Assembly: GCA_902799875.1 (NCBI GenBank)
Contig: CADCCH010000020.1
Span: 31,363-64,322 of the forward strand
Reading direction: 5' to 3'
From: an uncultured Bacteroidales bacterium
GTDB taxonomy: Bacteria; Bacteroidota; Bacteroidia; Bacteroidales; Paludibacteraceae
Length of the DNA: 32,960 nt
Part shown: in pieces, positions 389 through 32,344 of the stretch
Position numbering within the stretch: the first letter of the stretch is position 1
Layout of the letters: every line of letters starts with the position of its first letter
Program-made: the position numbers and the translations under genes
The notes under the pieces: model-generated
Told to the model about the DNA's origin: nothing
Databases searched by the model: none
What the model saw: only the letters and a program-made list of their open reading frames with translations

Positions 389-432
389 CCATAGGATACC
401 CATACCATACCCATAGGATATCCATAGGATAA
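389..432 (+). repeat. 11-bp tandem array, four copies
   Basis: Four head-to-tail 11-bp units: CCATAGGATAC (389-399), CCATACCATAC (400-410), CCATAGGATAT (411-421) and CCATAGGATAA (422-432). They fill the gap between the 86-aa gene and the acetyltransferase gene. The period is not a multiple of 3. Confidence 0.9.
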
Positions 433-459
433 AACGCAGAAAATAGCAAAAATTCAACA

Positions 460-491
460 TATACTATATATATACTATGTATATATATACT
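460..491 (+). repeat. alternating TA-rich tract before the acetyltransferase gene
   Basis: A 32-bp tract of almost pure alternating A and T, broken by ACTA and TGTA words, ends 14 nt before the ATG at 506. It could melt easily or hold a promoter, but no exact TAnnTTTG box is present. Confidence 0.6.
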
Positions 492-2651: not shown

Positions 2652-3881
2652 ATGAAGATCAAACCTTTTAAGGGAATACGGCCACCGAAAGAGTTGGTGG
2701 AGCAAGTGAGCAGTCGACCGTATGACGTGCTGAACAGTGAAGAGGCGCGTCAGGAAGCGGCAGGCAATGAGATGAGTCTGTATCATATCATTAAGCCGGA
2801 AATCAATTTTGCGCCGGGCACGGACGAACACGATCCGCGGGTATATCCTGAAGCCAAATCGCAGTATCAACGTTTTAAGATCAAAGGTTGGTTGGTGCAG
2901 GATCAGGAGCCGCATTACTATGTGTATGCCCAGACCATTCCGAAGGGTCATCGTTTGGCGACCCACGGCGAGCACACGCAGTACGGTCTGGTGGTCGATG
3001 CGTGGGTGAACGACTATATCGAGGGTCGTATCAAGAAACACGAGTTGACGCGACGCGACAAGGAAGAGGATCGTATGAAGCACGTGCGGATCTTGAACGC
3101 CAACATGGAGCCGGTGTTCTTCGCCTACCCTCACCGCGATGACCTCGATGCGATTGTAGCAGAGGTAGTAAAGGGTGAGCCGGAGTACGATTTTGTGGCG
3201 GCACCGGAAGGATTCAGGCACACGTTTTGGGTGATCGACAACAAGGAGACGATCGACAAGATCACGGCTATTTTTGAGGAGATTCCGGCGATGTATATTG
3301 CCGACGGACACCATCGTACAGCTGCTGCTGCAGGTGTCGGTAAGGGATATTTCCTGGCCGTTTGTTTCCCGGACAATCAACTCAATATCATCGACTACAA
3401 CCGCGTAGTGAAGGACCTGAACGGACTGACGAGTGAGCAGTTCTTGGAGGCATTGAAGGAGGATTTTGAGGTCGAAGACAAAGGTAAAGAGATCTATAAA
3501 CCGCAAGCACTGCATAACTTCAGCCTCTATCTGGACGGCAAATGGTATTCGTTGACGGCTAAGGAAGGTCGTTACAACGATGCGGATCCGATTGGAGTAC
3601 TGGACGTGACGATCAGCAGTAATCTGATTTTGGACAAGATCCTCGGTATCACAGATCTGCGGAGCGACAAACGGATTGATTTCGTGGGTGGTATCCGTGG
3701 TCTTGGTGAGTTAAAGAGGAGAGTCGATAGTGGAGAGATGAAAGTAGCGCTAGCACTCTACCCCGTTACGATGCAGCAGATCATCGATATCGCGGACTCG
3801 GGCAATATTATGCCGCCGAAGACGACGTGGTTTGAACCGAAGTTACGGAGCGGACTCGTGATCAATGAACTAGGAAACTAG
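2652..3881 (+). CDS. DUF1015 family protein
   Basis: A 409-aa protein. The start MKIKPFKGIRPPKELVEQVSS and the segment RPYDVLNSEEARQEA are typical of DUF1015, as is YIADGHHRTAAA (near residue 216). The family is sometimes annotated as a SerC-associated uncharacterised kinase-like protein, and its biochemical role is not settled. ATG 2652 is preferred to the in-frame ATG at 2625, because the family begins with this M-x-I-K-P-F-K motif and the upstream codons overlap the inverted repeat. The last codons (LGN, stop) lie inside the 8-bp array at 3868-3907, so the C-terminus is set by the repeat. I do not see serA or serC nearby. Confidence 0.92.
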   Translation: MKIKPFKGIRPPKELVEQVSSRPYDVLNSEEARQEAAGNEMSLYHIIKPEINFAPGTDEHDPRVYPEAKSQYQRFKIKGWLVQDQEPHYYVYAQTIPKGHRLATHGEHTQYGLVVDAWVNDYIEGRIKKHELTRRDKEEDRMKHVRILNANMEPVFFAYPHRDDLDAIVAEVVKGEPEYDFVAAPEGFRHTFWVIDNKETIDKITAIFEEIPAMYIADGHHRTAAAAGVGKGYFLAVCFPDNQLNIIDYNRVVKDLNGLTSEQFLEALKEDFEVEDKGKEIYKPQALHNFSLYLDGKWYSLTAKEGRYNDADPIGVLDVTISSNLILDKILGITDLRSDKRIDFVGGIRGLGELKRRVDSGEMKVALALYPVTMQQIIDIADSGNIMPPKTTWFEPKLRSGLVINELGN

Positions 3882-3907
3882 GAAACTAGGGGACTAGGAA
3901 ACTAGGA
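3868..3907 (+). repeat. 8-bp junction array AACTAGGA, five copies (DUF1015 / PorE-like)
   Basis: Units are AACTAGGA (3868, 3876), AACTAGGG (3884), GACTAGGA (3892) and AACTAGGA (3900-3907). The DUF1015 stop TAG (3879-3881) is in unit 2. The A of the next ATG (3907) is the last base of unit 5. TAG recurs every 8 nt and so falls in all three frames. Confidence 0.95.
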
Positions 3908-5967
3908 TGAAGAAAACTATATTTTTCATAGTAGCAGTGCTGTTGATGAGTAGTTGCTCTATTCAGCAGCGGATCAAGCGAGCGGACAAGAAATTCGCTA
4001 TCGGTGAGTATTACACCGCGGCGGATATCTACAAGTCCTGCTACGGTCGTATCTCCTCGAAAACGGATAAGCCGCTGAAGGGATATGTAGCGTTCAAGCA
4101 AGGCGAGTGTTACCGGATATTGAACAACCCGCGTGCGGTGAACTGTTACCAGAACGCGCTGCGCAACAAGTACCAGTTGCAGGACTCGATTGTGTTCCTG
4201 CATTGTGCCCAAGCGCTGCAGTATCAGGGTAAGTACAAAGACGCCGCCAAGAGTTACGATCTGTACCTCGAATCCCATCCTGACGAGTATGTAGCCAAAG
4301 CCGGTAAGTACGCTTGTATGAAGATCGAGGAGTGGAAGAAAGAAGGTTCGCGGTATAAGGTGTCGGAGGCGAAGGAATTTAACGCCAAGCGCTCGAGTAC
4401 GTTCGCACCGATGTTTATCGGAGATAACAGTGATGCGCTGATGTTCACCTCTAACCGTCCGGAGAAGAGCAAGAGCAACAGCAAGAAGCTCAAACGGCCG
4501 AGTAACGTCACGGGTCAGCAGTTGTTCCAACTCTACCAGACGCGTAAGAACGCGGCGGGTTTATGGGAAGATATTGTGCTGACAGAGGGTTTGTACGACG
4601 GCGGTGAAGAGGAAGAACAACAGAACGACTCGACCGGTGGTGGTAAATCTGCCGGAATGGCAGAGATGGGTGTTTGTTGCTTCACCAAAGACGGGCGCAC
4701 GATGTTGTTTACCTATTCGAAACCGATTAACGGTCAGGACCTGGGTGCCAAGATCTTCCGCAGTGAACGCGCAAGTGGAGAATGGGGTGAACCGCAGGAG
4801 GTGAAGTTATTTGCCGACAGTTCAATCACCGTGGGTCACCCTGCGCTGAACCCTGCGGGAGACACCTTATACTTTGTGTGCGACGACCCGCGCGGTATGG
4901 GAGGCAAGGATATCTGGTGCGCGGAGTTAGATAACGGCGAATGGGTCAATCCTCAGCCGCTGGGTAAAGGTATCAACACCGCCGCGGACGAGATGTACCC
5001 GTACGTTCACGCCGACGGAACGCTGTATTTTGCATCGAATGGTCATCCGGGATACGGAGGTTTGGATATCTTCAAAGCGACAAGGGACACGACGAATAAG
5101 GACTCGGTGGTATGGTTGCTGTACAATATGGGTGCACCGTTCAACGGCACCGGAGACGATTTCGGTATCACGTTTGAGGGCGAGACGCAGAATGGTTTCT
5201 TTAGTTCCAACCGCGGCGACAAGAAAGGTTTTGACAAGATCTACCGCTTTGTGTTACCGGAGATGGAGTTTTTGGTGGAAGGTACGGTGACGGACGAACA
5301 AGGTAACCCGCTCAGCGAGGCGGTACTGCGTATTGTGGGTTCCGATGGGACAAACAGCAAGCTCAATGCAAGACGCGATGGGACGTATAAGATCAAACTG
5401 AAAAAGGACGTGAAGTACGTTATGTTAGCGACCTGCCGCGGACACCTAAACGCCAAAGAACAATGGAATACGCTGGGTCTGAAGGACAGCAAGACGTATA
5501 ATGTGAACTTTGCTTTGAACCCGATCTCACGACCGGTGAAGATGGAGAATATCTTCTATGAGTTCGGTAAATGGGATATAACAAAGGCTTCGGAGACGGA
5601 ATTGGAAAAACTGGTTAAGTTGTTGAATGACAACCCCAATATCACGATCGAGTTGAGTGCCCACACGGATATGAAAGGTACGGACGAGTTCAACAACGAG
5701 CTGAGTCAAAAACGTGCGCAGAGTTGTTGCGATTTTCTCAAGAAACGCGGTATCGAAGCGGAACGTCTAACCCCGGTGGGATACGGTAAAACCAAACCGG
5801 TGGTAGCGGACAAAGCGCTCAATAAACAGTATCCGTGGATTGCGGTGGAGCAAGTGCTGGACGAGGCGTTTATCACGGCCCTACCAGCGGACAAACAGGA
5901 GATCTGCAACCAGATCAACCGTCGTACGGAATTTAAGGTCCTTAAAACAACGTATAAATTGTATTAA
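3907..5967 (+). CDS. PorE-like OmpA-family lipoprotein (T9SS-associated)
   Basis: A 686-aa protein. The N-terminus has a lipoprotein signal with lipobox LMSSC (Cys17). Then come TPR-like helices (about 20-130), a WD40/PD40 beta-propeller (about 160-440, with repeats such as [19 protein letters not shown] and [17 protein letters not shown]), a carboxypeptidase-regulatory-like fold (about 455-540) and a C-terminal OmpA-like peptidoglycan-binding domain (about 555-660, [20 protein letters not shown] and [12 protein letters not shown]). This order and length match PorE of Porphyromonas gingivalis, which anchors the type IX secretion machine to peptidoglycan. Paralogues with the same architecture exist, so PorE identity is an inference. 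Its start codon completes the 8-bp array. Acts at the periplasmic face of the outer membrane. Confidence 0.85.
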
Positions 5968-5968
5968 C

Positions 5969-6763
5969 ATGCAACAATATTTGGATTTATGCCGTAGAGT
6001 GCTGGAAGAAGGCACTGTCAAACACGACCGGACAGGCACGGGAACGATGTCGGTGTTCGGGCATCAGATGCGGTTTAAGATGGCCGACGGTTTTCCGTTA
6101 CTGACCACAAAAAAACTGCACCTCAAGTCGATCATTTATGAACTGCTGTGGTTCCTTCAGGGCGACACAAACGTAAAGTATCTGCAGGATCACGGGGTGC
6201 GTATCTGGAACGAATGGGCAGACGAGAACGGTGAGTTAGGTCCGGTGTACGGGCATCAATGGCGTAGCTGGCCGGACTATAACGGCGGACACATCGACCA
6301 GATCAAGAATCTGGTAGAGCAGATTAAGCACAACCCGGATAGCCGGCGATTGATGGTCAGTGCGTGGAACGTAGCGGAAGTGGAGAAGATGGCGTTGCCG
6401 CCGTGTCACTGTCTGTTCCAGTTCTATGTAGCGGACGGGAAATTGAGTCTGCAATTGTACCAGCGCAGCGCGGATATTTTCCTGGGTGTACCGTTTAATA
6501 TTGCGAGTTATGCGCTACTCCTGCAAATGATGGCGCAGGTAACGGGTTTGGAGTGCGGTGATTTTGTACATACGCTCGGTGACGCACATATTTACTTGAA
6601 CCATCTGGAGCAGGTGAAGTTGCAGTTGACGCGTGAACCGCGACCGTTGCCAAAGATGCTTATTAACCCTGAGGTAAAGGATTTGTTTGGCTTCCAGTTT
6701 GAAGATTTCCAACTGGAAGGTTACGATCCCCACCCTCATATTGCAGGAGTAGTAAGCGTATGA
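5969..6763 (+). CDS. thyA: thymidylate synthase
   Basis: A 264-aa protein, the same length as E. coli ThyA. It methylates dUMP to dTMP with 5,10-methylenetetrahydrofolate, yielding dihydrofolate. The catalytic site [13 protein letters not shown] places the nucleophile at Cys146. The phosphate-binding RTGTGT, the substrate motif [20 protein letters not shown], and the C-terminal [11 protein letters not shown] are intact. ATG 5969 is one base after the PorE-like stop, and an in-frame upstream extension overlaps that gene and is rejected. The stop overlaps folA by 4 bp (ATGA), so the enzyme that makes dihydrofolate and the one that recycles it are translationally coupled. Confidence 0.98.
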
Positions 6764-7245
6764 TTTCGATTATAGTAGCGATCGCAGAGAACTATGCGAT
6801 TGGTAAGAAAGGTGACCTGCTGTGTCACATGCCGGCGGACTTGAAGCATTTCAAGCAGATCACGAGCGGGCACACTGTGATGATGGGTGAGCGGACGTTT
6901 TTGTCGTTACCCAAGCACCCGCTGCCGAATCGCCGCAATATTGTGCTGACGGACGTGAAAGGAAAGACGTTCGAGGGCGCGGAGACTGTATATAGCATTG
7001 ATGAAATGATTCAATGTTGTAATGATGAAGAAGCGTTTGTGATTGGCGGCGGAATGGTGTACCGGCAAATGATGGAGCGTGCGGATAAACTCTATATCAC
7101 GCATATTCATCATTCCTGGGACGATGCGGATACGTTCTTCCCGGAGATCGATCCGACAATTTGGAAACAGCTCAGCGCAGAGCGGCACAGCGCAGACGAA
7201 AATAACCCTTACGATTATACTTTTGCAACTTATGGCAGACGATAA
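6760..7245 (+). CDS. folA: dihydrofolate reductase
   Basis: A 161-aa protein that reduces dihydrofolate to tetrahydrofolate with NADPH. Motifs: [32 protein letters not shown] (catalytic acidic residue in the PADLK segment), [21 protein letters not shown], and the cofactor loop [12 protein letters not shown]. Length is standard. It overlaps thyA by 4 bp and ettA by 14 bp. Confidence 0.97.
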
Positions 7246-8908
7246 GAAGATTATTTTTTCGATGGTGGGACTGAATAAGAGTTTTGGTCCCCAGAAACAG
7301 GTGTTGAAGAATATCTACCTGAGTTTTTTCTATGGTGCCAAGATCGGTATCATCGGTCTGAACGGTGCCGGTAAATCGACGCTCTTGAAGATCATCGCCG
7401 GTATTGAGAAAGAATACCAGGGAGAGGTGGTTTGGTCACCCGGCTATTCGGTTGGTTACCTGGAGCAGGATCCGAAACTCGATCCCGAGAAGACCGTACG
7501 TGAGATTGTGCAGGAAGGTGTGCAGCCTATTATGGACATGCTCAAGGAGTACGACGATATCAATATGGCTTTTGCAGAGCCCGATGCGGACTTCGATAAA
7601 TTATTGGCACGGCAAGCAGAACTGCAAGACAAGCTCGATGCCGCCGACGCATGGAATATTGACCAGAAGTTAGACCGCGCCATGGACGCGTTGCGTTGTC
7701 CGCCGGACGATGCGAAAGTGCCTACCCTCTCCGGAGGTGAACGTCGTCGTGTAGCGCTCTGTCGTCTGTTGTTGCAACAACCGGACGTGCTGCTGTTGGA
7801 TGAGCCGACGAACCATTTGGATGCAGAGAGTATCGATTGGTTGGAGCAACACCTGCAACAATATGCAGGAACGGTGATCTGTATTACGCACGACCGTTAT
7901 TTCCTGGATAATGTAGCGGGTTGGATCCTGGAGCTGGACCGCGGAGAAGGTATCCCCTGGAAAGGCAACTACTCGTCCTGGCTGGAGCAGAAGACCAACC
8001 GGATGGCGCAGGAGGAAAAACAGGCCAGCAAGCGTCGCAAGACTTTGGAGCGTGAGTTGGAATGGATCCGTATGGCTCCGAAAGCACGTCACGCCAAACA
8101 GAAAGCCCGTCTGGACTCGTACGACCGCATGTTGAACGAGGAACAGAAGGAACGCGAGGAGAAGCTGGAGATCTTTATTCCGAATGGTCCACGTTTGGGT
8201 AACAAGGTGATCAATGCCGAAGGTGTGGCCAAGTCCTTTGGTGACAAGTTGCTGTTTGAGGATCTCAATTTCATGTTACCGCCTAACGGTATCGTCGGTG
8301 TGATTGGTCCGAACGGTGCGGGTAAAACAACGCTCTTCCGTATGATAATGGGTACGGAGAAAGCCGATAAGGGTACGTTCTCGGTAGGTGAGACGGTCAA
8401 GATCGGTTACGTCGATCAGCAACATGCCGATATTGACCCGAACAAGAGTGTGTTTGAGCAGATCAGCGGTGGAACGGAGTTTATCCGTGTCGCAGGTCGT
8501 GAGATCAATGCGCGGGCGTACTTGAGTCGTTTCAATTTCACTGGAGCGGATCAAGAGAAGAAATGCGGTGTACTGTCCGGTGGTGAACGAAACCGTTTGC
8601 ATCTGGCTCTGACGCTCAAATCCGAAGCGAACGTACTATTGCTGGACGAGCCGACGAACGATATCGATGTGAACACGCTCCGGGCGTTGGAGGAAGGTCT
8701 CGAGAACTTTGCCGGCTGTGCAGTAGTGATTAGTCACGACCGTTGGTTCCTCGATCGTATCTGTACGCATATTCTGGCCTACGAGGGAGAGGGCAAGGTG
8801 TTCTGGTTTGAAGGCAGCTACTCGGAGTACGAGCAGAATAAGAAAATGCGACTCGGTGAAGAGGCTTGCGAGCCCAAACGGGTCCGCTATCGCGGGCTTA
8901 ATGGGTGA
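7232..8908 (+). CDS. ettA: energy-dependent translational throttle ABC-F protein EttA
   Basis: A 558-aa soluble ABC-F ATPase. It has two ABC domains: Walker A GLNGAGKST with signature LSGGERRRVAL, and Walker A GPNGAGKTT with signature LSGGERNRLHL. Both D-loop regions read LLLDEPTN. EttA hallmarks are RGEGIPWKGNYSSWLEQK, WIRMAPKARHAKQKARLDSY, and a C-terminal half ending in FEGSYSEYEQNKK. In E. coli EttA binds the ribosomal E site and gates the first peptide bond according to energy state. It has no membrane segments, so it is not a transporter. ATG 7232 is chosen because upstream in-frame codons lie in folA. The stop TGA (8906-8908) falls in the first unit of the 8-bp array before tilS. Confidence 0.96.
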   Translation: MADDKKIIFSMVGLNKSFGPQKQVLKNIYLSFFYGAKIGIIGLNGAGKSTLLKIIAGIEKEYQGEVVWSPGYSVGYLEQDPKLDPEKTVREIVQEGVQPIMDMLKEYDDINMAFAEPDADFDKLLARQAELQDKLDAADAWNIDQKLDRAMDALRCPPDDAKVPTLSGGERRRVALCRLLLQQPDVLLLDEPTNHLDAESIDWLEQHLQQYAGTVICITHDRYFLDNVAGWILELDRGEGIPWKGNYSSWLEQKTNRMAQEEKQASKRRKTLERELEWIRMAPKARHAKQKARLDSYDRMLNEEQKEREEKLEIFIPNGPRLGNKVINAEGVAKSFGDKLLFEDLNFMLPPNGIVGVIGPNGAGKTTLFRMIMGTEKADKGTFSVGETVKIGYVDQQHADIDPNKSVFEQISGGTEFIRVAGREINARAYLSRFNFTGADQEKKCGVLSGGERNRLHLALTLKSEANVLLLDEPTNDIDVNTLRALEEGLENFAGCAVVISHDRWFLDRICTHILAYEGEGKVFWFEGSYSEYEQNKKMRLGEEACEPKRVRYRGLNG

Positions 8909-8927
8909 ATGGATGAATGGGTGAATG
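8900..8927 (+). repeat. 8-bp junction array AATGGGTG, 3.5 copies (ettA / tilS)
   Basis: AATGGGTG (8900-8907), AATGGATG (8908-8915), AATGGGTG (8916-8923) and the partial unit AATG (8924-8927). The ettA stop TGA is at 8906-8908 and the tilS ATG is at 8925-8927 in the partial unit. TGA at 8906, 8914 and 8922 covers all three frames. Confidence 0.93.
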
Positions 8928-9806
8928 TTACGTAGAGTCTCGACATATATACGCAAACACGGTTTATTGGATAAAGATAAGCCGGTGTTGGTGGCGGTGA
9001 GTGGTGGTGCAGACAGTGTGGCACTGTTGGATGTGTTACTTCGTGCCGGTTATACCTGTGTGGTGGCACATTGTAACTTCCATCTGCGTGGTGCAGAGAG
9101 TGACCGAGATGCGGCTTTTGTGAGGGAGCTGTGTGCACAATGGAACGTACCCTTGGAAGTCAAAGACTTCGATACGAAAGCCTATGCGAGTGCGCACAAC
9201 GTGAGTATCGAAGTAGCGGCACGGGAGTTGCGATATGCATGGTTTGCGGAAGTAGCGCGCCAACATGCTTGTCAGGCTATCTGCGTAGCGCACCATCAGA
9301 ACGACCAAGTGGAGACCTTGCTGCTGAACCTCAAACGCGGTACGGGACTGCGTGGACTCGCCGGCATGCGGCCCGTCAGTACCAATCCGATGGTGCCCGA
9401 AAGTGCACCGGTAGTTCGTCCGCTCTTATGCACCACACGGGATTATATTGAACATTACCTACGGGACAAGAGGCAACTCAATTGGGTGAACGACAGCACC
9501 AACAGCGACACCTCGATCACCCGGAATGCGATCCGTGCACAGGTGCGTACATACACCAAAGCCGAGATCGAACACATGGCCCAAACGGCAGAATATATAC
9601 AAGGGTATGTAGATTGGTTAGAAGGTAAAGATACCCGCGAAGCAGGAATAGCCCGATTGTACGAAGCACTTCGCGATTGTAATTTTGCTGAAATAGATAA
9701 GATATACGATGCGTTGCAAAAGGGAGAAGGAGGTAAAACATTCACATCCAAGACCCATCAGGCAACGATAAAAAAAGGTAAGTTATGCGTCACTACGGTA
9801 TCATAG
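8925..9806 (+). CDS. tilS: tRNA(Ile)-lysidine synthase, short form
   Basis: A 293-aa N-type ATP pyrophosphatase. The PP-loop SGGADS is at residues 26-31, followed by AHCNFHLRGAESDRDAAFV, HNVSIEVAARELRYAWF, AHHQNDQVETLLLNLKRGTGLRGLAGM and the tRNA-binding segment NWVNDSTNSDTSITRNAIR. The enzyme attaches lysine to C34 of tRNA-Ile(CAU) so that it reads AUA. Most TilS proteins are about 430-450 aa with C-terminal substrate domains. This one ends soon after the core, with a short beta-rich tail (GKTFTSKTHQATIKKGKLCVTTVS), so it appears to lack the final domain. It overlaps aroE by 22 bp, and no frameshift is evident. Confidence 0.93.
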   Translation: MLRRVSTYIRKHGLLDKDKPVLVAVSGGADSVALLDVLLRAGYTCVVAHCNFHLRGAESDRDAAFVRELCAQWNVPLEVKDFDTKAYASAHNVSIEVAARELRYAWFAEVARQHACQAICVAHHQNDQVETLLLNLKRGTGLRGLAGMRPVSTNPMVPESAPVVRPLLCTTRDYIEHYLRDKRQLNWVNDSTNSDTSITRNAIRAQVRTYTKAEIEHMAQTAEYIQGYVDWLEGKDTREAGIARLYEALRDCNFAEIDKIYDALQKGEGGKTFTSKTHQATIKKGKLCVTTVS

Positions 9807-10513
9807 GATTTCCACTACTCCACTCGTTCTCTGCGAAGTATTTCAATGAGAAATTTGCAACAGAGCATATCGAGGCGGAATATTCGTTGTACCCAACAGG
9901 GATTGAAGATTTAAGATTGAAGATTGAAGATTTATTGGACTCCCTGGATGGGTTCAATGTAACCTTGCCGTATAAGCAAGCGATTATTCCGTTTTTGGAT
10001 CGATTGGATGAGACTGCGCAGGCGATTGGTGCAGTGAATGTGGTGTATAAGCGTGTGGGTTATAACACGGATTGTTTGGGATTTATGGAGTCCATTAAGC
10101 CTCTATTGCGTGCGTATGATAGCAAGGCGTTGGTTCTTGGTACAGGTGGAGCGTCCAAAGCCGCATGTTACGGTTTGCGTAAATTAGGGATCACCCCTAC
10201 CCTCGTCAGTCGGAATCCGAAAGAAGGACAGTTGGGATACAAGGACTTGACGCCGGAGATAATGGCAGAGCATACGATCATTGTGAATTGCACGCCCTTA
10301 GGTATGTACCCGGACGTGAACAGTTGTCCGGATATACCATATGAACTTATTTCGGCACGACATTTGTTGTTTGACTGCGTGTATAACCCTGAAGAGACGC
10401 TCTTTTTGCAGAAAGGCAAGGCACAGGGCGCCACGATTCAAAACGGTATCGGGATGTTATACGGTCAGGCCAAAGAAGCATGGGGTATTTGGAGTGAATG
10501 GATGAATGAATGA
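9785..10513 (+). CDS. aroE: shikimate dehydrogenase
   Basis: A 242-aa enzyme that reduces 3-dehydroshikimate to shikimate with NADPH, in the pathway to aromatic amino acids. Motifs: substrate-binding PLLHSFSAKYFN, catalytic Lys64 in FNVTLPYK, Asp96 in YNTDCLGF, the nucleotide-binding loop GTGGASKA (119-126), and the C-terminal QNGIGMLYGQA. It is shorter than E. coli AroE (272 aa) but complete. Residues about 39-52 (IEDLRLKIEDLLD) are written by a 7-bp tandem array at 9901-9935, which lies in a variable region before the catalytic Lys. Its final codons are part of the 8-bp array at 10494-10525. Confidence 0.96.
   Translation: MRHYGIIGFPLLHSFSAKYFNEKFATEHIEAEYSLYPTGIEDLRLKIEDLLDSLDGFNVTLPYKQAIIPFLDRLDETAQAIGAVNVVYKRVGYNTDCLGFMESIKPLLRAYDSKALVLGTGGASKAACYGLRKLGITPTLVSRNPKEGQLGYKDLTPEIMAEHTIIVNCTPLGMYPDVNSCPDIPYELISARHLLFDCVYNPEETLFLQKGKAQGATIQNGIGMLYGQAKEAWGIWSEWMNE
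9901..9935 (+). repeat. 7-bp array GATTGAA, five copies, inside aroE
   Basis: GATTGAA (9901), GATTTAA (9908), GATTGAA (9915), GATTGAA (9922), GATTTAT (9929-9935). It is read through in the aroE frame. TGA and TAA triplets in the array fall only in the other two frames. Confidence 0.93.
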
Positions 10514-10525
10514 AAGAATGAAAGA
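10494..10525 (+). repeat. 8-bp junction array ATGAAAGA/ATGAATGA, four copies (aroE / DUF4831)
   Basis: GTGAATGG (10494), ATGAATGA (10502), ATGAAAGA (10510), ATGAAAGA (10518-10525). The aroE stop TGA is at 10511-10513 in unit 3, and the chosen DUF4831 start follows at 10527. TGA occurs in all three frames. Confidence 0.9.
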
Positions 10526-10526
10526 T

Positions 10527-11573
10527 ATGAAAAGAATTTTTGTTATTTCCGCCTCAGTTTTGGCGCTGTGCGCGGTGCAAGCACAAGTATTGGAAGAGAA
10601 CGAATCGGCACTGGTGTACTACAGTCCGAAGACAGAAATCCGTTTGGATTTTACCTACACGGTAGAACGTTTTGAACGCGGACAGTACGCAGAGTTTGCG
10701 GAGTCGATGATCGGTGCAACCGATGCGGTGATGGAAACCGGAAGTGTATGTACGCTGCAAGACGTACATATCGGTACGGCTACCACGACCGACTATCAAC
10801 GTCCGCATAAAGTGAACACCGATGCCGGTTTTCCGATGTTGTTGAATATCAACGACAAGGGTCTGCTGACAGGTTATAACGTGCGTCACTTTGGTGGTAA
10901 ACCCGCACCGAAAAAGGACGAGTGTGAGAAAGAGCGTAAGCATAAAGCACCGCGGGTACTGGTTCCGCCCTACCCGGAAGAGGTGCTGAATGCCGCTAAT
11001 CCCGAGGCACAGGCACACGAGGTAGCCAAACAGATCTTCCATCTGCGCGAGACGCGTATGTATTTGTTGAACGGAGAAGTGGAGAACGCACCGGCAGACG
11101 GAGAGGCCATGCGACTGGTGCTCGAAGAGCTGGATAAGCAGGAACGGGAGTTAACGCGTCTGTTTGTCGGTAAGCGCTCCAAGCGGGAAGAGCACAAGAG
11201 TGTCCGTGTGGTGCCTAACGATGCAGGTGAGTTGCTGTTCTTCAGTGATGAGAACGGTTTTACGGACAGCGACAATGTCGATGCCGACACGATTGAGATA
11301 CGTATGAGTTGTGAGCAACAAGTAGCACAACCGGTGATTGTAGATGCCAAGAACAAGAAGAAAGCACCGGAGATGACGCAGATTGTGTATAACATCCCTG
11401 GATATTGTACGGTAAGCGTCCTGTACAAGGGTCAAAAACTGGCCGATCGTGCCGTGCCGGTTGCCCAATTAGGTATCGATGTGGCGTTACCGAAGAGTAT
11501 GTTTGTAGGCAAAGACCTGCCGAAGATTGTGTTCAGTGACAAAACCGGAAATATCGAGTCGATTAATCAATGA
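10527..11573 (+). CDS. DUF4831 family exported protein
   Basis: A 348-aa protein with a signal peptide MKRIFVISASVLALCAVQAQ. The first part, ALVYYSPKTEIRLDFTYTVERFERGQYAEFAESMIG, is the feature by which I place it in DUF4831, a Bacteroidota periplasmic or surface family with no assigned role. The rest has a charged middle (about residues 130-150, rich in Lys, Glu and Arg) and beta-rich segments. ATG 10527 is preferred to 10506, because the earlier start would place array-encoded residues before the signal peptide. It overlaps porD by 4 bp (ATGA), and in Bacteroidales this pairing suggests an envelope or secretion link, which is an inference. Confidence 0.85.
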   Translation: MKRIFVISASVLALCAVQAQVLEENESALVYYSPKTEIRLDFTYTVERFERGQYAEFAESMIGATDAVMETGSVCTLQDVHIGTATTTDYQRPHKVNTDAGFPMLLNINDKGLLTGYNVRHFGGKPAPKKDECEKERKHKAPRVLVPPYPEEVLNAANPEAQAHEVAKQIFHLRETRMYLLNGEVENAPADGEAMRLVLEELDKQERELTRLFVGKRSKREEHKSVRVVPNDAGELLFFSDENGFTDSDNVDADTIEIRMSCEQQVAQPVIVDAKNKKKAPEMTQIVYNIPGYCTVSVLYKGQKLADRAVPVAQLGIDVALPKSMFVGKDLPKIVFSDKTGNIESINQ

Positions 11574-12478
11574 GAAAGTTTTTTTACATAGCATGCATAC
11601 TATGTGCCGCAAGCCTAGCGAACGCGCAGGAGATCAACTGTACGGTGACCATCAACTCCGATCAGATAGAAGGCTCCAACAAACAGGTCTATGAGACGCT
11701 GAAATCGTCCATCGAGGAGTATATGAACCAGAACCGCTGGACGAATATGACGTACGCCGAGCAGGAGAAGATTGAGTGTAGCATGCTGATCTTAGTCAAG
11801 GAAGCGGCGGATAACATGTACAAATGTGAGATGACGTTGCAGAGTCGCCGTCCGGTTTGGGGTACGACCTACACCACTCCGCTGCTCAATTTTGTGGACC
11901 GCAATTTCAACTTCACCTACCAGGAGTATGATCGTCTGGACTGGCAGCAGAACACATTTACCACCAACCTCACGGCGATGTTGGCGTACTACTGTTACCT
12001 GATCATCGGTCACGACCAGGATAGTTTTCAACGTTTGGGTGGTACTCCCTTTTTCCAGGTCTGTGAAGAGATTGTTAACACCTGTCAGAGTGCCAGTATG
12101 GAGAGTTCTGAACAGAAAGGTTGGTTAGCTTTTGACAGCAACCGAAACCGTTATGCATTGATCAACAACCTGCTGGACGAGGCGTTTAAGAAATACCGCA
12201 ATTTCTACTACGAGTACCACCGTTTGGGGCTCGATGAGATGAGCGGGAACGTCACCAACGGTCGAGCCCGTATTGCGCAAGGCATGCCGGTGCTGAAGGA
12301 AGCCTATCGCGCTCGTCCTGCGACGTACGTGATCAATACCTTCCTGGACGCCAAGGCCGATGAGTTGGTGGATATCTTCAAAAAGGGCACGGACAAAGAG
12401 AAAAAAGAAGTGTATGATCTGCTGATGGATATCGATGCCACGCGGCAGAGTACGTATGATCGCATTAATGGAAATTAA
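11570..12478 (+). CDS. porD: type IX secretion system protein PorD (DUF4835)
   Basis: A 302-aa protein with signal peptide MRKFFYIACILCAASLANAQ. The mature part begins EINCTVTINSDQIEGSNKQVYETLKSSIEEYMNQNRWTN. It also contains TLQSRRPVWGTTYTTPLLNFVD, YYCYLIIGHDQDSF and a C-terminal helix DRING. This is the DUF4835 pattern known as PorD, required for type IX secretion in Porphyromonas gingivalis; its exact role is not settled. porD directly upstream of recN is a gene order I know from other Bacteroidota. The stop TAA closes the first unit of the 7-bp array before recN. Confidence 0.9.
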   Translation: MRKFFYIACILCAASLANAQEINCTVTINSDQIEGSNKQVYETLKSSIEEYMNQNRWTNMTYAEQEKIECSMLILVKEAADNMYKCEMTLQSRRPVWGTTYTTPLLNFVDRNFNFTYQEYDRLDWQQNTFTTNLTAMLAYYCYLIIGHDQDSFQRLGGTPFFQVCEEIVNTCQSASMESSEQKGWLAFDSNRNRYALINNLLDEAFKKYRNFYYEYHRLGLDEMSGNVTNGRARIAQGMPVLKEAYRARPATYVINTFLDAKADELVDIFKKGTDKEKKEVYDLLMDIDATRQSTYDRINGN

Positions 12479-12499
12479 AAATTAAGAATTAAAAATTAA
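12472..12499 (+). repeat. 7-bp junction array AAATTAA, four copies (porD / recN)
   Basis: AAATTAA (12472), AAATTAA (12479), GAATTAA (12486), AAATTAA (12493-12499). The porD stop TAA is the end of unit 1 (12476-12478). The A of the recN ATG (12499) is the last base of unit 4. TAA at 12476, 12483, 12490 and 12497 covers all frames. Confidence 0.95.
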
Positions 12500-16351: not shown

Positions 16352-18618
16352 ATACAAAGACTTGGTACAAACCGTTTTTGATTTGGTTCTGGAGCCTCTT
16401 CTTGGGAGGCATTCTGGTAGCTTTTCTGGTGATTTGGTTGATCACCAAAGGCGCTTTGGGTTATTTGCCGCCTTTGGAGGAGTTGCAGAACCCGAAGAAC
16501 ACGTTTGCCAGTGAGGTCATCTCGGCGGACATGCAGTCGCTGGGACGTTACTACCGGTATGAGAACCGTATCGGCGTGCAGTACACGGACCTCTCTCCTA
16601 ACCTGATCAACGCCCTTGTGGCAACCGAAGATGTACGGTTCTATGAGCATACAGGTGTGGATTTCAAGTCCATGTTCCGTGCGATTCTTAAACTGGGTCG
16701 TGCCGGTGGAGGTAGTACGTTGACCCAACAATTGGCTAAGCAGTTATGGTCTCCGCGAGCCAATAATATCTTTGAGCGGGCCATGCAGAAACCGATTGAA
16801 TGGGTGATTGCGACCAAGTTAGAGCGACTCTACTCCAAGGATGAGATCCTGCTGATGTACCTCAATCAGTTTGACTTCCTGTACAATGCGGTTGGCGTTC
16901 AAACGGCTTCGCAGGTTTATTTCTCCACCACCCCTACGGAACTCAAACTGGAAGAGGCCGCGATGTTGGTAGGTATGTGTAAGAACCCCTCGTTATACAA
17001 CCCTGTTCGTCACCCGGTTCGGGCAACCAACCGCCGCAATACGGTACTAGGTCAAATGGAGAAATACGGTTACATCGATGCGGCAACCAAAGATTCCGTC
17101 GCTGCTTTACCGCTTACATTGCACTATAGTTCGGTGGATCACAAACAAGGTCCTGCACCTTACTTGCGGGAGTACTTACGTACGGTGCTGACTGCCAAAG
17201 AACCGCGGGAGAGTGATTACTCGGAGTGGAACAAACAGCAGTATAAACTGGACCTCTGGCAGTGGGAAAACAACGCGCTCTACGGTTTCTGCGAGAAGAA
17301 CAAGAAAGCAGATGGTTCTTCGTATGACCTCTATCAGGACGGACTGAAGATTTACACGACCATCGACTCGCGTATGCAGCGTTATGCCGAAGAGGCGGTC
17401 AGTGAACATATGCAGGCGCAACAGAAAGCGTTCTTTAAGGAACTCAAACGCAAGAAGAATGCACCGTTCTCCAAGCAACTGACGCAAGCCGAAGTGGACG
17501 GTATTATGAACCGCTCTATGCGGCAAACAGACCGGTATCGTAACATGAAACGTGCCGGTATCAGTCACGACTCGATTATTGCTTCGTTCATGGTGCCGCG
17601 CGAGATGCAGGTGTTTGACTATACGAATGGATTGATCGATACGGTGCTTAGTCCGTATGACTCGATCAAATGGCTCAAGAGTTATTTGCGTTGCGGTTTT
17701 ATGTCCATGGATCCGCATACAGGACACGTCAAGGCGTACGTAGGCGGACCTAATTTTGCGCATTTCCAATACGATATGACGACCAAAGGTCGTCGGCAGG
17801 TAGGATCGACCGTTAAACCGTACCTCTACACGCTTGCGATGGACGAAGGTATGTGGCCCTGCGAGACCTGGGTGTATGACTCCGTGGTCTTTGTTCTCCC
17901 GGATGGGACCCGCTGGGTGCCGCGCGACACGCACGACAAGTACCAAGGCGATACGGTAACGCTGACTTGGGGACTGAAAGAGTCCTCCAACTGGATGGCG
18001 GCCTATTTGATGTCGCTCTTTACGCCGGAACAACTCGTTAAGATGATGCAATCGTTCGGTATCCAAGGACAGTTAGATCCGGTTGTATCACTCTGTCTCG
18101 GTCCATGTGAGGTAAGTGTAGAAGAGATGGTGGACGCCTATACGACTTTTGCCAACAAAGGTATCCGTACCGAGCCGCTGTATGTTACTCGTATTGAGGA
18201 TAACAACGGCAATGTGATAGGTACGTTCACGCCCAAGACACACGAGATCATCAGTGAGACAACCGCCTACAAGATGATTTATATGCTGCGTCAGGTACTC
18301 GACCATGGAACAGGTGTCCGTACCCGTTTCAAATACGGTATCACGGCTCCGATGGGCGGTAAGACCGGTACGACGAACAATAACTCTGACGGTTGGTTTA
18401 TGTGCTTTACGCCCTCTCTGGTCAGCGGCACGTGGGTAGGAGGAGAAGACCGTGGTATCCATTTCGACAACATGGCCGAAGGACAAGGTGCGTCCATGGC
18501 GCTACCTATCTGTGCACTGTATATGCAGAAGATCCTTGCTGATCCGGAATTGGGTTACAGTCCGGAAGAACAATTCGATATCCCCGCATGGTTTGATCCG
18601 AATGAAGGGTGTAGATAG
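16348..18618 (+). CDS. class A penicillin-binding protein (PBP1A-like)
   Basis: A 756-aa bifunctional peptidoglycan synthase. It has one N-terminal membrane anchor (about residues 8-32) and a glycosyltransferase domain with catalytic Glu in ATEDVRFYEHTGVD, GGGSTLTQQLAKQLW and the family-51 motifs after it. The transpeptidase domain has Ser487 in GSTVKPYLY (SxxK), the SSN triad in LKESSNWM, and KTGTTNNNSDGWF. It builds glycan strands and cross-links them on the outer face of the inner membrane. Length is normal for this class in Bacteroidota. The stop TAG begins the 7-bp array at 18616. Confidence 0.96.
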   Translation: MNTKTWYKPFLIWFWSLFLGGILVAFLVIWLITKGALGYLPPLEELQNPKNTFASEVISADMQSLGRYYRYENRIGVQYTDLSPNLINALVATEDVRFYEHTGVDFKSMFRAILKLGRAGGGSTLTQQLAKQLWSPRANNIFERAMQKPIEWVIATKLERLYSKDEILLMYLNQFDFLYNAVGVQTASQVYFSTTPTELKLEEAAMLVGMCKNPSLYNPVRHPVRATNRRNTVLGQMEKYGYIDAATKDSVAALPLTLHYSSVDHKQGPAPYLREYLRTVLTAKEPRESDYSEWNKQQYKLDLWQWENNALYGFCEKNKKADGSSYDLYQDGLKIYTTIDSRMQRYAEEAVSEHMQAQQKAFFKELKRKKNAPFSKQLTQAEVDGIMNRSMRQTDRYRNMKRAGISHDSIIASFMVPREMQVFDYTNGLIDTVLSPYDSIKWLKSYLRCGFMSMDPHTGHVKAYVGGPNFAHFQYDMTTKGRRQVGSTVKPYLYTLAMDEGMWPCETWVYDSVVFVLPDGTRWVPRDTHDKYQGDTVTLTWGLKESSNWMAAYLMSLFTPEQLVKMMQSFGIQGQLDPVVSLCLGPCEVSVEEMVDAYTTFANKGIRTEPLYVTRIEDNNGNVIGTFTPKTHEIISETTAYKMIYMLRQVLDHGTGVRTRFKYGITAPMGGKTGTTNNNSDGWFMCFTPSLVSGTWVGGEDRGIHFDNMAEGQGASMALPICALYMQKILADPELGYSPEEQFDIPAWFDPNEGCR

Positions 18619-18650
18619 TTAATAGTGAATAGTAAAAAGTTAATAGTCCT
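18616..18650 (+). repeat. 7-bp junction array TAGTTAA, about five copies (PBP / TPR)
   Basis: TAGTTAA (18616), TAGTGAA (18623), TAGTAAA (18630), AAGTTAA (18637), TAGTCCT (18644, degenerate). The PBP stop is the first triplet. The GTG start of the next gene (18625) lies in unit 2, so the array encodes the first residues of its signal peptide. Stops occur in all frames, but not in the reading frame after GTG. Confidence 0.9.
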
Positions 18651-20574
18651 TGCTCTTTTGTCTTTGTTCCTTGTTCCGGCAAAAGCGCAGCTCAACACCG
18701 ACCGCATTACCGCGATCGGACGAAATGCGTTGTACTTTGAGGATTACGTTTTGTCCATCCAATATTTCAACCAGGTCATCAGTTTGAAGCCGTATCTGGC
18801 TGAACCTTATTTCTATCGGGCGATTGCCAAGATTCAACTGGAGGATTATCAGGGTGCACTCAAAGACTGTAACGCCGCTATCGAACGCAATCCTTTCTCG
18901 CCCGGAATCTACTATGCTCGTGGGTACATCTATCGGCAATTGAACCAACCCGAACTGGCAGAACAGGACTACACACAAGCCTTACATTTCTCACCGGAGA
19001 ACCGTACGTACATGTTGCTCCGAGCGGACACCCGCGCATCAATGGAGCAGTACGATGCAGCCCTCGAAGATATCGAAGCAATGTTACGTCGTGAACCGAA
19101 TGCCGCGTCGGTATGGTCCGAGAAAGGACGAATCTGTATCCTCAAAAAAGACACTTTAGATGCGCTTGAGGCGTTTGAGAATGCAGTTAAGTATGACAAG
19201 AACAATGCCGCCTCCTGGTCAGCGCTGGGAGTCACAAATCTGATGCTCGAGCACGAAGATGAGGCGTACGTCCAACTGACACAGGCCATCAATCTGGGCT
19301 CTAAATGGGCCGGTGATTATATCAACCGCGGTATCATTCATTACCACCGTAATAACTTCCGCGGTGCGCTGTCTGACTATGACCATGCGGTTCAGATAGC
19401 TCCGCGTGACGCCGATTGTTACTACAATCGTGGTATAATGCGTCAAGAAGTAGGCGATTATAACCATGCGCTCGAAGATTTCAACACGGCGGTCAACTTA
19501 GCCCCCGAACGCACCGAGATGCGCTACCAACGGGGCTTGGTGGAGATGCAACTCAAACAATGGAAAGCGGTTGTGACGGACATGAACGCACTCATCGAAC
19601 GCTATCCGTATTTCTTGCCGGCCTATTATCTGGCGGCACAAGCCAAGACCCAGCAAGGGGACAGCAAAGCGGCGTATCAGTACCGCCAGAAGGCGTACGA
19701 TCTGGAGCAACGCAAAGACGAGATACAAGCCCAGCAGGCTCAGCCCAATACGGATCTGCTAATTGCTGATGCCCAGCCGCAGAAGAAAGACCATCGGAAA
19801 GAGTTCTCTGCTTCTACGGCACAAAACCAATCGGAGTTACCGGAAGAGGAACAGAAATACGACTCGCAGACCCGCGGCACGGTACAGAAACGCTATCAAG
19901 ACGTGGTCAACGAGCCGAATGTCGTGCTGAACTACTACAGTCAGGACCTGAGTCTACGGCGTACGAACTACTACCATCCTCTTGTGGATCAACTTAATAA
20001 GCAAGCAATCTTACCGGCTGCGCTTAAGTTCACGTCCCAAGAGCTGACGTTGACGGCCGACATGGTGGATTATCATTTCGCGAACATCAAACGCATCACC
20101 ACGCTAATGGACGAGAACCCGTCAGCCTATTTCTATTTGGCACGCGCGATGGAATTTGCGATCATCAAAGACTATGCGAGTGCCGTAGATGACTGCACCA
20201 AAGCGCTGCTGTTAGCTGATCGGGATCTCGAACCGATTATCGTCTTCTGCCGTGCCAACTGGCGTTATCGTATGATGGACGGAGACTATGAGATGATCCT
20301 GCGCGACTATGATCACGTACTCGACTTGCAACCTGATTTCTGCTTTGCTTTATACAACAAAGCCAATACACTTTGTGCTAAACGAGAGTACCAGGAAGCC
20401 ATCAAGTATTACACGCAGGCCATCAGCAAAGATCCTGATTTTGCCGAGTCGTACTTCAACCGGGGACTGACCTATATCTACACCGGAGAGAATGAGAAAG
20501 GCTTGGCGGATCTGAGCAAAGCCGGTGAACTCGGTATCTATCAGGCGTATAACTTAATTACACGATTTAAATGA
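18625..20574 (+). CDS. exported tetratricopeptide-repeat protein
   Basis: A 649-aa protein. GTG start, then a signal peptide ending near LVPAKAQ. TPR motifs follow one another from about residue 40 to 350, such as YFYRAIAKIQLEDYQGALKDCNAAIERNP and CYYNRGIMRQEVGDYNHALEDFNTAVNLAP. A Gln-rich linker follows (about 370-420), and more TPRs run to the end (CFALYNKANTLCAKREYQEAIKYYTQAI). It probably scaffolds envelope complexes in the periplasm. Position between a PBP and a TraB-like gene suggests an envelope role, but no specific partner is visible. The GTG start is forced: the array supplies no ATG, and the next codons make a clean signal peptide. Confidence 0.9.
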   Translation: MNSKKLIVLALLSLFLVPAKAQLNTDRITAIGRNALYFEDYVLSIQYFNQVISLKPYLAEPYFYRAIAKIQLEDYQGALKDCNAAIERNPFSPGIYYARGYIYRQLNQPELAEQDYTQALHFSPENRTYMLLRADTRASMEQYDAALEDIEAMLRREPNAASVWSEKGRICILKKDTLDALEAFENAVKYDKNNAASWSALGVTNLMLEHEDEAYVQLTQAINLGSKWAGDYINRGIIHYHRNNFRGALSDYDHAVQIAPRDADCYYNRGIMRQEVGDYNHALEDFNTAVNLAPERTEMRYQRGLVEMQLKQWKAVVTDMNALIERYPYFLPAYYLAAQAKTQQGDSKAAYQYRQKAYDLEQRKDEIQAQQAQPNTDLLIADAQPQKKDHRKEFSASTAQNQSELPEEEQKYDSQTRGTVQKRYQDVVNEPNVVLNYYSQDLSLRRTNYYHPLVDQLNKQAILPAALKFTSQELTLTADMVDYHFANIKRITTLMDENPSAYFYLARAMEFAIIKDYASAVDDCTKALLLADRDLEPIIVFCRANWRYRMMDGDYEMILRDYDHVLDLQPDFCFALYNKANTLCAKREYQEAIKYYTQAISKDPDFAESYFNRGLTYIYTGENEKGLADLSKAGELGIYQAYNLITRFK

Positions 20575-21494
20575 TGGTAAAGGTTAAAGGTTATAGGTTA
20601 AAGGTTATCGTTTTAATATGGATGGTTCTTTCGCCATTCATTCTTCACCATTCGCCATTATCGGCACAAGTACTATATGAGATATCCGGTAACGGAGCGA
20701 AAGCCAAGTCCTATCTGCTGGCTACCAACCGCTATACGGAAATGACGTTTTTGGATACTATCCCAAATGTCTTCAAGTGCTTCGGACGATGCAAAACGGT
20801 GATCACGGAGTTTGCCTTGCAAGACTATGAAGCGATTGCTGCCTTACGTCGTGCAGCCGTCCTTCCGGACTCTATTAAATTAAACAATTTTTATAGCGAA
20901 AGCGAGTATAAACTTATCGACAATAGTCTTCGCATTAATATCGGTATGGGATTAGATCAGTTATGCCGTATGAAACCGGCGTACCTGACAGAGCTGTTTC
21001 GGGTGGAATTATTCAAACAATGGTTAGGGTACGACGATACCAAATCGATGGACAGCTTCTTTGAGTCCGTTGCGGCAGAACGCAACATTCCGGTCTACGG
21101 TCTCGACGATATAGGCGAGACGATGTATATGCTCTTTGACCGCGAGCCATTTCATTGGCAATGTAAAGAATTGTTGAAGGTCATCGAGTACCCCGAGAAC
21201 GAAGTCAAACAGGAACGAACGATCCGGGATTTATATAAGAACGGACTGCTTACCGACATCGCTTATCAGGTGGAAGGACCTAACAATACCACCTCTATCT
21301 CGTACTCGGATTATAAGGTATATGCGCAACGGAACATTGCATGGACCAAACGTCTGCGTCCCTACCTCACTACCGGTGGAGCGTTCATCACACTCGATGC
21401 GGTTTATTTGGGAGGAGACAAAGGACTGATCCAACAATTACGCAAAGCCGGATACCGAGTTCGAGCATACAATAAGATTATCCATCAAAAATAA
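20571..21494 (+). CDS. TraB/GumN-like exported protein
   Basis: A 307-aa protein resembling the TraB/GumN (Tiki-like) family. After a signal peptide come VLYEISGNGAKAKSYLLATNRYTEMTFLDTIPNVF, FFESVAAERNIPVYGLDDIGE and a C-terminal GGAFITLDAVYLGGDKGLIQQLRKAGYRVRAY. The family is thought to include metal-dependent proteases, though bacterial functions are mostly unproven. The canonical GxxH motif near the N-terminus reads LLATNRY here, so a key His may be replaced. The signal peptide itself (residues 1-33) is encoded by two separate heptamer arrays. It overlaps the TPR stop by 4 bp. Confidence 0.8.
   Translation: MMVKVKGYRLKVIVLIWMVLSPFILHHSPLSAQVLYEISGNGAKAKSYLLATNRYTEMTFLDTIPNVFKCFGRCKTVITEFALQDYEAIAALRRAAVLPDSIKLNNFYSESEYKLIDNSLRINIGMGLDQLCRMKPAYLTELFRVELFKQWLGYDDTKSMDSFFESVAAERNIPVYGLDDIGETMYMLFDREPFHWQCKELLKVIEYPENEVKQERTIRDLYKNGLLTDIAYQVEGPNNTTSISYSDYKVYAQRNIAWTKRLRPYLTTGGAFITLDAVYLGGDKGLIQQLRKAGYRVRAYNKIIHQK
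20576..20609 (+). repeat. 7-bp array GGTTAAA at the start of the TraB-like gene
   Basis: GGTAAA (20576), GGTTAAA (20582), GGTTATA (20589), GGTTAAA (20596), GGTTATC (20603-20609). It lies just after the TPR stop (20572-20574) and encodes the basic start of the signal peptide (VKVKGYRLKV). TAA and TAG fall in the two non-coding frames only. Confidence 0.93.
20632..20659 (+). repeat. second 7-bp array CGCCATT in the same signal peptide
   Basis: CGCCATT (20632), CATTCTT (20639), CACCATT (20646), CGCCATT (20653-20659). It encodes the end of the signal peptide hydrophobic core and cleavage region (SPFILHHSPLSAQ). The complement (AATGGYG) resembles the 8-bp array before tilS. Confidence 0.82.
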
Positions 21495-29839: not shown

Positions 29840-29861
29840 AAATTCTGCCCAAATTCTGCCC
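29840..29861 (+). repeat. two tandem 11-bp copies of AAATTCTGCCC
   Basis: AAATTCTGCCC at 29840-29850 and 29851-29861, followed by AAAA. They lie 38 bp beyond the duplicated tRNA end, where arm-type integrase binding sites would be expected. That role is an inference. Confidence 0.7.
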
Positions 29862-29862
29862 A

Positions 29863-29892
29863 AAATGACTTTCACGATTGTGGAAGTCATTT
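29863..29892 (+). terminator. hairpin of terminator type in the scar region
   Basis: Stem AAATGACTTTCAC (29863-29875), loop GATT, stem GTGGAAGTCATTT (29880-29892), 13 pairs with one G-T. Flanking A and T runs make it possible in either direction. It could be the end of a lost integrase gene. Confidence 0.5.
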
Positions 29893-32187: not shown

Positions 32188-32331
32188 TTATTTCTGCCAA
32201 TCTATGCCGCGTAAGCAGGCGGGGAGTTTGGTTCCGGCGGCTTTATGATGTGCTACGCAGGCACAGCAATGCCCGTGCCTCGGACAGTCTTTAGGACAAG
32301 GGCAATCTATGGAATTATGTGGACAGGGCAT
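32188..32331 (-). CDS. small Cys-rich protein, DUF6485-like (47 aa)
   Basis: A 47-aa protein missed by length cut-offs. Residues 1-20 hold CPHNSIDCPCPKDCPRHG, followed by HCCACVAHH and a final LPACLRG. The eight Cys with CPRHG-x-CC-x-C spacing match what I recall of DUF6485, small Cys-rich proteins of anaerobes (pattern CPRHGKCCECVAYH...LPACL). Eight Cys and several His suggest metal or Fe-S binding. It has a clear promoter (32362-32392) with a hairpin at the transcript start. Family placement is from memory, and the cysteine pattern is directly visible. Confidence 0.75.
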   Translation of the reverse strand: MPCPHNSIDCPCPKDCPRHGHCCACVAHHKAAGTKLPACLRGIDWQK

Positions 32332-32344
32332 GGTGTTTGTTTTC

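Follow-up and report, generated by a model that had tools for sequence, protein, structure and literature searches.

Introduction

In Xanthomonas and Nostoc, the G-rich heptamers GGGAATC and GGGGA(T/C)T, respectively, lie after stop codons between co-directional genes, according to the passages of Rehm 2015 (PMC4692102) used here. In marine Beggiatoaceae, TAACTGA direct repeats occur genome-wide, carry stop codons, and mostly end just upstream of start codons; the passages of that report also place a few of them in Bacteroidetes, including Paludibacter (MacGregor 2015, PMC4679880). Both papers cite Mrazek 2007 for an over-representation of heptamers in long simple sequence repeats (SSRs), for which polymerase contact length was suggested. 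Here we analyze tandem arrays of 7- and 8-bp units in a 32,960-nt stretch of DNA (the window) from an uncultured Bacteroidales bacterium of the Paludibacteraceae (contig CADCCH010000020.1, positions 31,363 to 64,322, forward strand), and in the genomes of its relatives. A first-pass annotation of the window had read these arrays as a recurring junction type that enforces translation termination and re-initiation. Our results indicate that they are probably the outcome of a tandem-expansion process with a 7-nt step, filtered by tolerance, in which the stop/start plan is passive and no such device is involved.

As far as the cited passages go, the arrays of this clade are like the Xanthomonas and Nostoc heptamers (PMC4692102) in their clear excess of 7-nt units, their preference for co-directional over divergent spacers and coding DNA, their proximity to stop codons, and their sense-strand orientation (figures below). 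They are unlike them in that the work on those lineages concerns one G-rich, quadruplex-forming unit type each, whereas the clade has many unit classes, mostly not G-rich (some, such as ACGGGTT, do carry GGG), and many arrays inside genes. With TAACTGA (PMC4679880) the clade shares genome-wide heptamer arrays that carry stop codons; however, that system has one heptamer at starts, and the clade has many units at upstream stops. A 7-nt excess is common to the clade and to the survey of Mrazek 2007, but a unit vocabulary shared across sites and the replacement of units at homologous sites are features of the clade that the passages on that survey do not mention. Among the matches listed in our literature searches, none dealt with this clade or with unit sharing across sites.

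Arrays of the window

The presence of the arrays is confirmed, in numbers well beyond chance: six arrays of period 7 or 8 in the window pass our detector, against a mean of 0.01 and a maximum of 1 in 200 shuffles that preserved codons in genes and dinucleotides in spacers. The detector misses weak arrays, such as that at 18615-18647 (80% matches, below threshold), which was found by Tandem Repeats Finder (TRF). Coordinates are collected in Table 1. Genes were called with our own dicodon model, so that start positions may be off.

Table 1. Period-7 and period-8 arrays of the window, with the two genes most used in the analysis (ORF, open reading frame)
Feature	Position	Strand	Context	Basis
8-bp array AACTAGGA x5	3868..3907	+	DUF1015/OmpA-PD40 (PorE-like) junction	TRF, ORF list, direct reading
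8-bp array AATGGGTG x3.5	8900..8927	+	ettA/tilS junction	TRF, ORF list, direct reading
aroE gene	9785..10513	+	one internal array and one at the 3' end	PF08501
7-bp array GATTGAA x4.6	9901..9932	+	inside aroE, no junction; encodes IEDLRLKIEDLL	TRF, relatives
Degenerate 8-bp array (TGAATGAA/ATGAAAGA)	10495..10525	+	aroE/DUF4831 junction	own detector
porD (DUF4835)	11570..12478	+	query that fetched the homologous loci	PF16119
7-bp array AAATTAA x4	12472..12499	+	porD (DUF4835)/recN junction	TRF, direct reading
Degenerate 7-bp array, TAGTTAA-like	18615..18647	+	PBP/TPR junction	TRF, direct reading
7-bp array GGTTAAA x4.3	20578..20607	+	within TraB-like gene N-terminus as called (PF01963)	TRF, ORF list

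The first-pass annotation listed six junction arrays built on one plan and, in its title, had them hold both the upstream stop and the next start. Five of them follow the plan. Stop and start are both held by the arrays at 3868 (DUF1015 stop TAG at 3879-3881 in the second AACTAGGA unit, next ATG at 3907), 8900 (ettA stop TGA at 8906-8908, tilS ATG at 8925-8927), 12472 (porD stop at 12476-12478, recN ATG at 12499), and 18615 (PBP stop at 18616-18618, called GTG at 18625). As had been claimed, the A of the ATG is the last base of the array in two cases, those at 3907 and 12499. The aroE/DUF4831 junction comes close: the aroE stop TGA (10511-10513) lies inside the array, and of the in-frame ATGs at 10506, 10518, and 10527 the last, just after the array, is the likeliest start of DUF4831, in agreement with the start in relatives. 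TRF describes this array differently, as a period-4 TGAA repeat at 10495-10531 with 76% matches. The sixth array does not fit. The stop at 20572-20574 and the first in-frame ATGs (20571 and 20574) all precede it, and it therefore codes for the N terminus of the TraB-like protein as called, rather than forming a spacer that ends at a start. Conversely, the array in the middle of aroE (9901-9932) was absent from the list.

That stop and next start in the window often sit at opposite ends of the array is what a termination/re-initiation device would show. A block of copies arising on close or overlapping stop and start codons would take on this layout passively, the first copies keeping the upstream stop and the downstream start falling in or after the last copy.

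Period and genomic placement in relatives

A search with porD as the query gave 72 loci. Sixty of these (L001-L060) come from relatives at 56-93% PorD identity, mainly assemblies of rumen or gut metagenomes that carry the title Paludibacteraceae or uncultured Bacteroidales; with the window they make 61 homologous sequences, among which array counts are not independent. For a genome-wide sample we used 80 stretches of 20 kb (L073-L152) from 13 relatives, 1.6 Mb with 1300 called genes, and genome-wide statements below refer to these relatives' genomes rather than to the window's own. Most of these genomes were assembled from metagenomes, and some repeats may have been collapsed.

The genome-wide sample contained 282 arrays of period 7 or 8 or of compound period 14-16, located in co-directional spacers (161), coding DNA (88), divergent spacers (17), convergent spacers (14), and at stretch ends (2). 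Per kb, this amounts to 1.24 in co-directional, 0.86 in convergent, and 0.51 in divergent spacers, and 0.062 in coding DNA. Period 7 dominated, with 167 arrays; periods 6, 8, 9, 10, and 11 had 5, 37, 17, 16, and 41, respectively. Split into noncoding/coding arrays, the counts were 0/0 for period 5, 3/2 for 6, 112/55 for 7, 28/9 for 8, 14/3 for 9, 12/4 for 10, 36/5 for 11, 6/3 for 12, 18/12 for 15, and 2/7 for 18. Shuffles of the homologous loci, of 40 of the 80 stretches, and of the outgroup loci gave a mean of at most one array per period. In the outgroup loci themselves (12 loci, 218 kb), period 7 was represented by three arrays and period 8 by none. The preference extends to noncoding two-copy tandems outside arrays, where the largest excess over a single shuffle was at period 7 (70 vs 16; period 8, 18 vs 3; period 6, 74 vs 58).

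Inside genes longer than 450 bp, we counted 54 arrays of period 7, against one of period 6 and two each of periods 9 and 12. Only multiples of 3 are frame-safe there, and yet period 7 prevails; the step of 7 therefore does not come from reading-frame selection and seems to belong to the generator. This argument covers arrays, not coding two-copy tandems. It also bears on the idea that periods of 7 and 8 are there because they repeat stop codons in all three frames: given the period-7 coding arrays and unit-stop counts near those of shuffled units (below), we rejected an adaptation of the period to all-frame stops. The coding arrays are also unlike those of the archaeal Borg elements, with which the clade shares fast-evolving arrays in spacers and genes: the Borg ORF repeats, in the passages of PMC9879509 used here, all have lengths divisible by three, as against 24 of 108 coding arrays in genes longer than 450 bp here, 19 of those 24 having period 15 or 18.

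The window arrays are probably local samples of a population of short arrays spread over the genomes of a rumen/gut Bacteroidales clade. We infer that tandem duplication or slippage, with an intrinsic step of about 7 nt and less often 8 or 11, makes and resizes them. Purifying selection would spare arrays that fall after stops, in short co-directional spacers, in signal-peptide regions, and in loops, and would clear them from most coding and promoter DNA.

Anchoring at stop codons

The junction arrangement itself recurs in the clade, as the first-pass annotation expected: of 738 co-directional junctions whose gap is below 120 bp, 106 carry an array, a figure that a termination/re-initiation device would also account for. 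To which end of a spacer arrays are tied can be read from co-directional spacers of at least 120 bp. Here 20 of 47 arrays begin no more than 15 nt from the upstream stop, where 5.2 would be expected with random placement within each spacer (P = 3e-8); 3 end within 15 nt of the start, which is chance level (4.4 expected), and 24 lie between. Of the 14 arrays in convergent spacers, where no start follows, 10 are located at a stop. Placement is tied to the stop, with the start incidental. In classifying arrays, "at stop" was assigned before "at start", an order that matters in short spacers only and does not enter the anchoring result.

Stop codons within units are close to what unit composition gives. 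In every noncoding class the number of units containing a stop was within about 5 of that for letter-shuffled units: genome-wide, 43 of 54 for arrays overlapping a stop (39.6 expected) and 16 of 34 for arrays 0-20 nt after one (19.4 expected); in the homologous set, 84 of 90 (79.1 expected) and 18 of 25 (19.2 expected). In genome-wide coding arrays, unit stops were below expectation (13 of 64, 29.3 expected).

An element that enforces all-frame termination and sets up re-initiation at the next start would be expected to show an anchor at the downstream start and stops in its units beyond composition. The clade's arrays have neither; they also occur at convergent ends and inside genes, and most homologous junctions do without them. 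We therefore regard such a device as very improbable, and the claim of the first-pass annotation to that effect as not upheld.

Turnover at homologous junctions

That annotation had also pointed to homologous junctions in relatives, where absence of arrays would speak against its reading. An array is present at 132 of 691 such junctions (a further 44 have a weak tandem below threshold), so that most lack one, close to the adverse outcome. At ettA/tilS, 19 of 36 species have an array, with 16 unit classes, the most at any one junction. At porD/recN, the figures are 13 of 55 and 11 classes, and in 17 of 55 stop and start share one base. The window has AAATTAA at this site, its closest relative by recN (L001, 81% nucleotide identity) has just a TAATG overlap, and others have GTTGAAA, GGATTAGA, GAATGAAG, and more. 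The median gap per junction ranges from -24 to +23 nt where there is no tandem and from -19 to +73 nt where there is an array, 10 of the 14 latter medians being 25-50 nt.

Change is visible between close relatives. In eight pairs with at least 93% recN identity, which share taxa, 34 junction comparisons involved at least one array: the unit was shared in 9, different in 4, and the array one-sided in 21. Two sister loci, L023 and L025, are 95.4% identical; exactly one 7-bp unit separates them at porD/recN, and at pbp/tpr the difference is 21 bp, with two mismatches besides, in line with the earlier suggestion that copy number varies. At DUF1015/PorE the same two loci are identical until three bases before the stop and then have units of AAAGGTG type and AATAATG type, respectively, with differences that extend into the next gene. 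At ettA/tilS their arrays are in the same phase, but units are changed throughout, a 4-bp gap follows, and about 30 bp of the left flank is altered as well, which indicates a replaced tract. Recombination between alleles or sites probably swaps whole tracts in this way. At the porE/thyA junction, L023 has a heptamer array and L025 a longer insert with inverted-repeat-like stretches.

Unit vocabulary, array-free junctions, and strand bias

Several observations weigh against the expansion process in its purely neutral form, and the strongest of them are the unit vocabulary, two array-free junctions, and a sense-strand bias.

Unit choice is far from random and in part species-specific, which plain slippage would not predict. 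The 200 arrays of period 7 or 14 fall into 80 strand-free unit classes. The share of array pairs with a common class is 1.9% between species and 4.5% within species (different stretches), compared with 0.16% for spacer 7-mers; these counts may include stretches homologous between species. When species labels of stretches were permuted 500 times, the observed 83 compared with a mean of 35 and a maximum of 68. When pairs of equal base composition are considered, a class is shared by 83 of 168 pairs within species and by 341 of 1157 pairs between species, vs 5% under random letter order. Unit classes one substitution apart are also in excess (153 vs 86 expected, with a maximum of 110 in 50 randomizations). 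Of 20 clade genomes, 12 contain AAAGTCG arrays, with 0-21 matches per genome across the 20 when overlapping ones are included, and none of 118 other genomes of the order does; AATTGAT arrays occur in 10 of the 20. Arrays with the same unit do not have more similar flanks than other arrays (27% vs 26% similarity), and a larger interspersed element of which the arrays would be a part is therefore rejected.

Nor do units look like products of their own junctions. Their likeness to the homologous array-free junction was 0.739, and to unrelated junctions 0.734 (P = 0.26, 108 arrays). Seeding from the ancestral junction thus left no signal, and simple local duplication is unsupported as the source of units.

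The odd feature of this system is that a set of units peculiar to the lineage recurs at unrelated sites whose flanks are not alike, and that units are replaced rapidly. To account for it, either the machinery would have to prefer certain sequences or units would have to be copied from site to site. In the second case heptamers would spread from array to array, without flanks and self-propagating, by template switching, ectopic conversion, or a dedicated templated process. The class sharing, the excess of one-substitution neighbors, the clade-restricted AAAGTCG, the dissimilar flanks, and the lack of derivation from the local junction would all follow. However, slippage with a sequence preference, combined with recombination between relatives, could look alike; neither a donor tract nor an enzyme was identified; and the window's own AACTAGGA was found as an exact array in 1 of the 20 genomes only. 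We consider such spread a rather unlikely source of the arrays, and it is similarly doubtful that a lineage vocabulary is copied across unrelated sites with existing arrays, even those in reading frames, rewritten in place. If true, it would amount to a flankless mobile repeat process with a 7-nt unit in bacterial chromosomes, acting via template switching or a dedicated enzyme.

The tilS/aroE and hemW/pbp junctions had no array in any of 53 and 52 homologous cases, respectively, though their neighbors have them. Tolerance alone does not obviously explain hemW/pbp, where the median overlap equals that at array-bearing junctions such as thyA/folA. In coding DNA, moreover, the excess of two-copy tandems over a single shuffle is not specific to 7 (period 6, 663 vs 524; period 7, 111 vs 58; period 8, 22 vs 12; period 9, 34 vs 10).

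Finally, arrays at stops are oriented. G exceeds C on the sense strand in 87 and the reverse holds in 28; for arrays at other positions of co-directional spacers the corresponding counts are 18 and 21 (7 ties excluded). Units overlapping a stop contain a stop codon more often than their reverse complements do (84 vs 45 of 90 in the homologous set; 43 vs 16 of 54 genome-wide), a difference that is smaller for arrays 0-20 nt past the stop (18 vs 10 of 25; 16 vs 14 of 34). The termination device discussed above would gain from this excess, but overlap with the gene's own stop may explain part of it.

The bias at stops could reflect a function. By analogy with a proposal made for TAACTGA, transcribed heptamers after the stop might bind an RNA-binding protein, provide ribosome standby, or protect 3' ends. 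Xanthomonas and Nostoc heptamers are placed in the same way, and those of Beggiatoaceae lie upstream of starts; this, together with the genome-wide use of certain units within a species, would suit such a role. Against it, both the unit and its presence vary between sister loci at the same gene pair, unit classes are as numerous as described, and like arrays occur in coding DNA. A regulatory role for the arrays as a whole hence appears improbable.

Arrays within aroE

The aroE array is an example inside a reading frame. As 7 is not a multiple of 3, its unit is read in three frames, and in the window T replaces G in those copies that would otherwise put TGA in frame. In different species, arrays at about this place have AAGATTG, AAAGTTG, AAAGTCG, AAATTGG-like, or AACGAATG units (in relatives, AGTTGAA, AAGTCGA, and AACGAATG), which encode helices such as IEDLRLKIEDLL and VESLKLKVESLL; some species have no array there.

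At the protein level we examined the best 120 of 7922 AroE matches, among them a close set of 30 (P0001-P0030, 94-100% identity; the partial P0043, 208 aa, was excluded). C termini of the close set fall into five states: a four-residue extension like that of the window (WMNE and variants) in 10, WGIWSE in 4, WKIWNI in 14, and two singletons. The loop IGNLKLEIGNLL is present in 2 of the 30. Of the 9 residue differences that separate P0030 from P0024, 8 fall between positions 38 and 49. Replacement of the local allele by that of a relative would be the simplest cause of these differences, as judged from the protein sequences. The corresponding C-terminal motif search on PorD homologues missed 102 of 120 proteins and gave no usable result.

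As in phase-variable SSRs, copy number differs between loci of sister species, and AroE C termini vary among these 30 of the best 120 proteins. Gene callers should be used with caution in this clade, where C and N termini, signal peptides, and loops are in part repeat DNA.

Repair genes

Loops of 7 nt escape the usual mismatch repair. Loss of mismatch repair was rejected as a sufficient cause of the arrays: mutS1 scored over the cut-off in 19 of 20 clade genomes (G001-G020) and MutL in all 11 tested. A Y-family polymerase domain was found in 10 of 11.

The SbcCD nuclease seems, from sequence matches, to be missing in most clade genomes. SbcD was over the cut-off in 2 of the 20, vs 13 of 40 other genomes of the order. 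For SbcC, 4 of 11 clade genomes gave matches, all of them below the cut-off and near-full only in G005; that cut-off was passed by only 1 of 14 control genomes. One SbcD carrier (G011) nonetheless has three 8-bp arrays at its porD locus, L032, and SbcD therefore does not separate the groups. Since SbcD is scarce in the order too, and G011 has both gene and arrays, loss of this hairpin nuclease was rejected as the cause.

Significance

With a 7-nt expansion process as the preferred account, the observation becomes one about mutation, where a device acting on translation had been supposed. Dozens of species assemblies exist for the clade and one-unit changes can be seen in it, which makes it well suited to asking why heptamers abound in bacteria, and also how unit sequences come to recur at unrelated places.

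Other tandem repeats

A second class of arrays has period 11 (for example, window 29840-29864), with units such as AAATTCTGCCC and ATAATAAGGAC; periods 9 and 10 are rarer. Upstream of a GNAT-like gene, window positions 389-489 contain an AT-rich tandem stretch together with 11-bp arrays. An ORF of 138 aa (32245-32661) that has no Pfam match includes three neighboring 12-bp arrays, each with its own unit (32478-32626), which yield KVTG/KVRR/KSTM-like peptides.

The longest arrays are of GGGTTAC/GGGTTAT type, with up to about 20 copies (L078, L110, and L111) and GGG every 7 nt; they are telomere-like, and quadruplexes are possible in them. Pyrimidine-rich heptamers such as TCTGTAC or TCTGTGT occupy the first codons of a TPR or TraB-like gene in L004, L006, L028, L029, L051, and L059, where repeat DNA apparently forms the hydrophobic core of the signal peptide. 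In L023, L057, and L012, one spacer holds a pair of inverse-complement arrays (GTGAAAG ... TTTCAAT; AGTTGATAG ... CTATAAACT), which could in principle form long imperfect hairpins.

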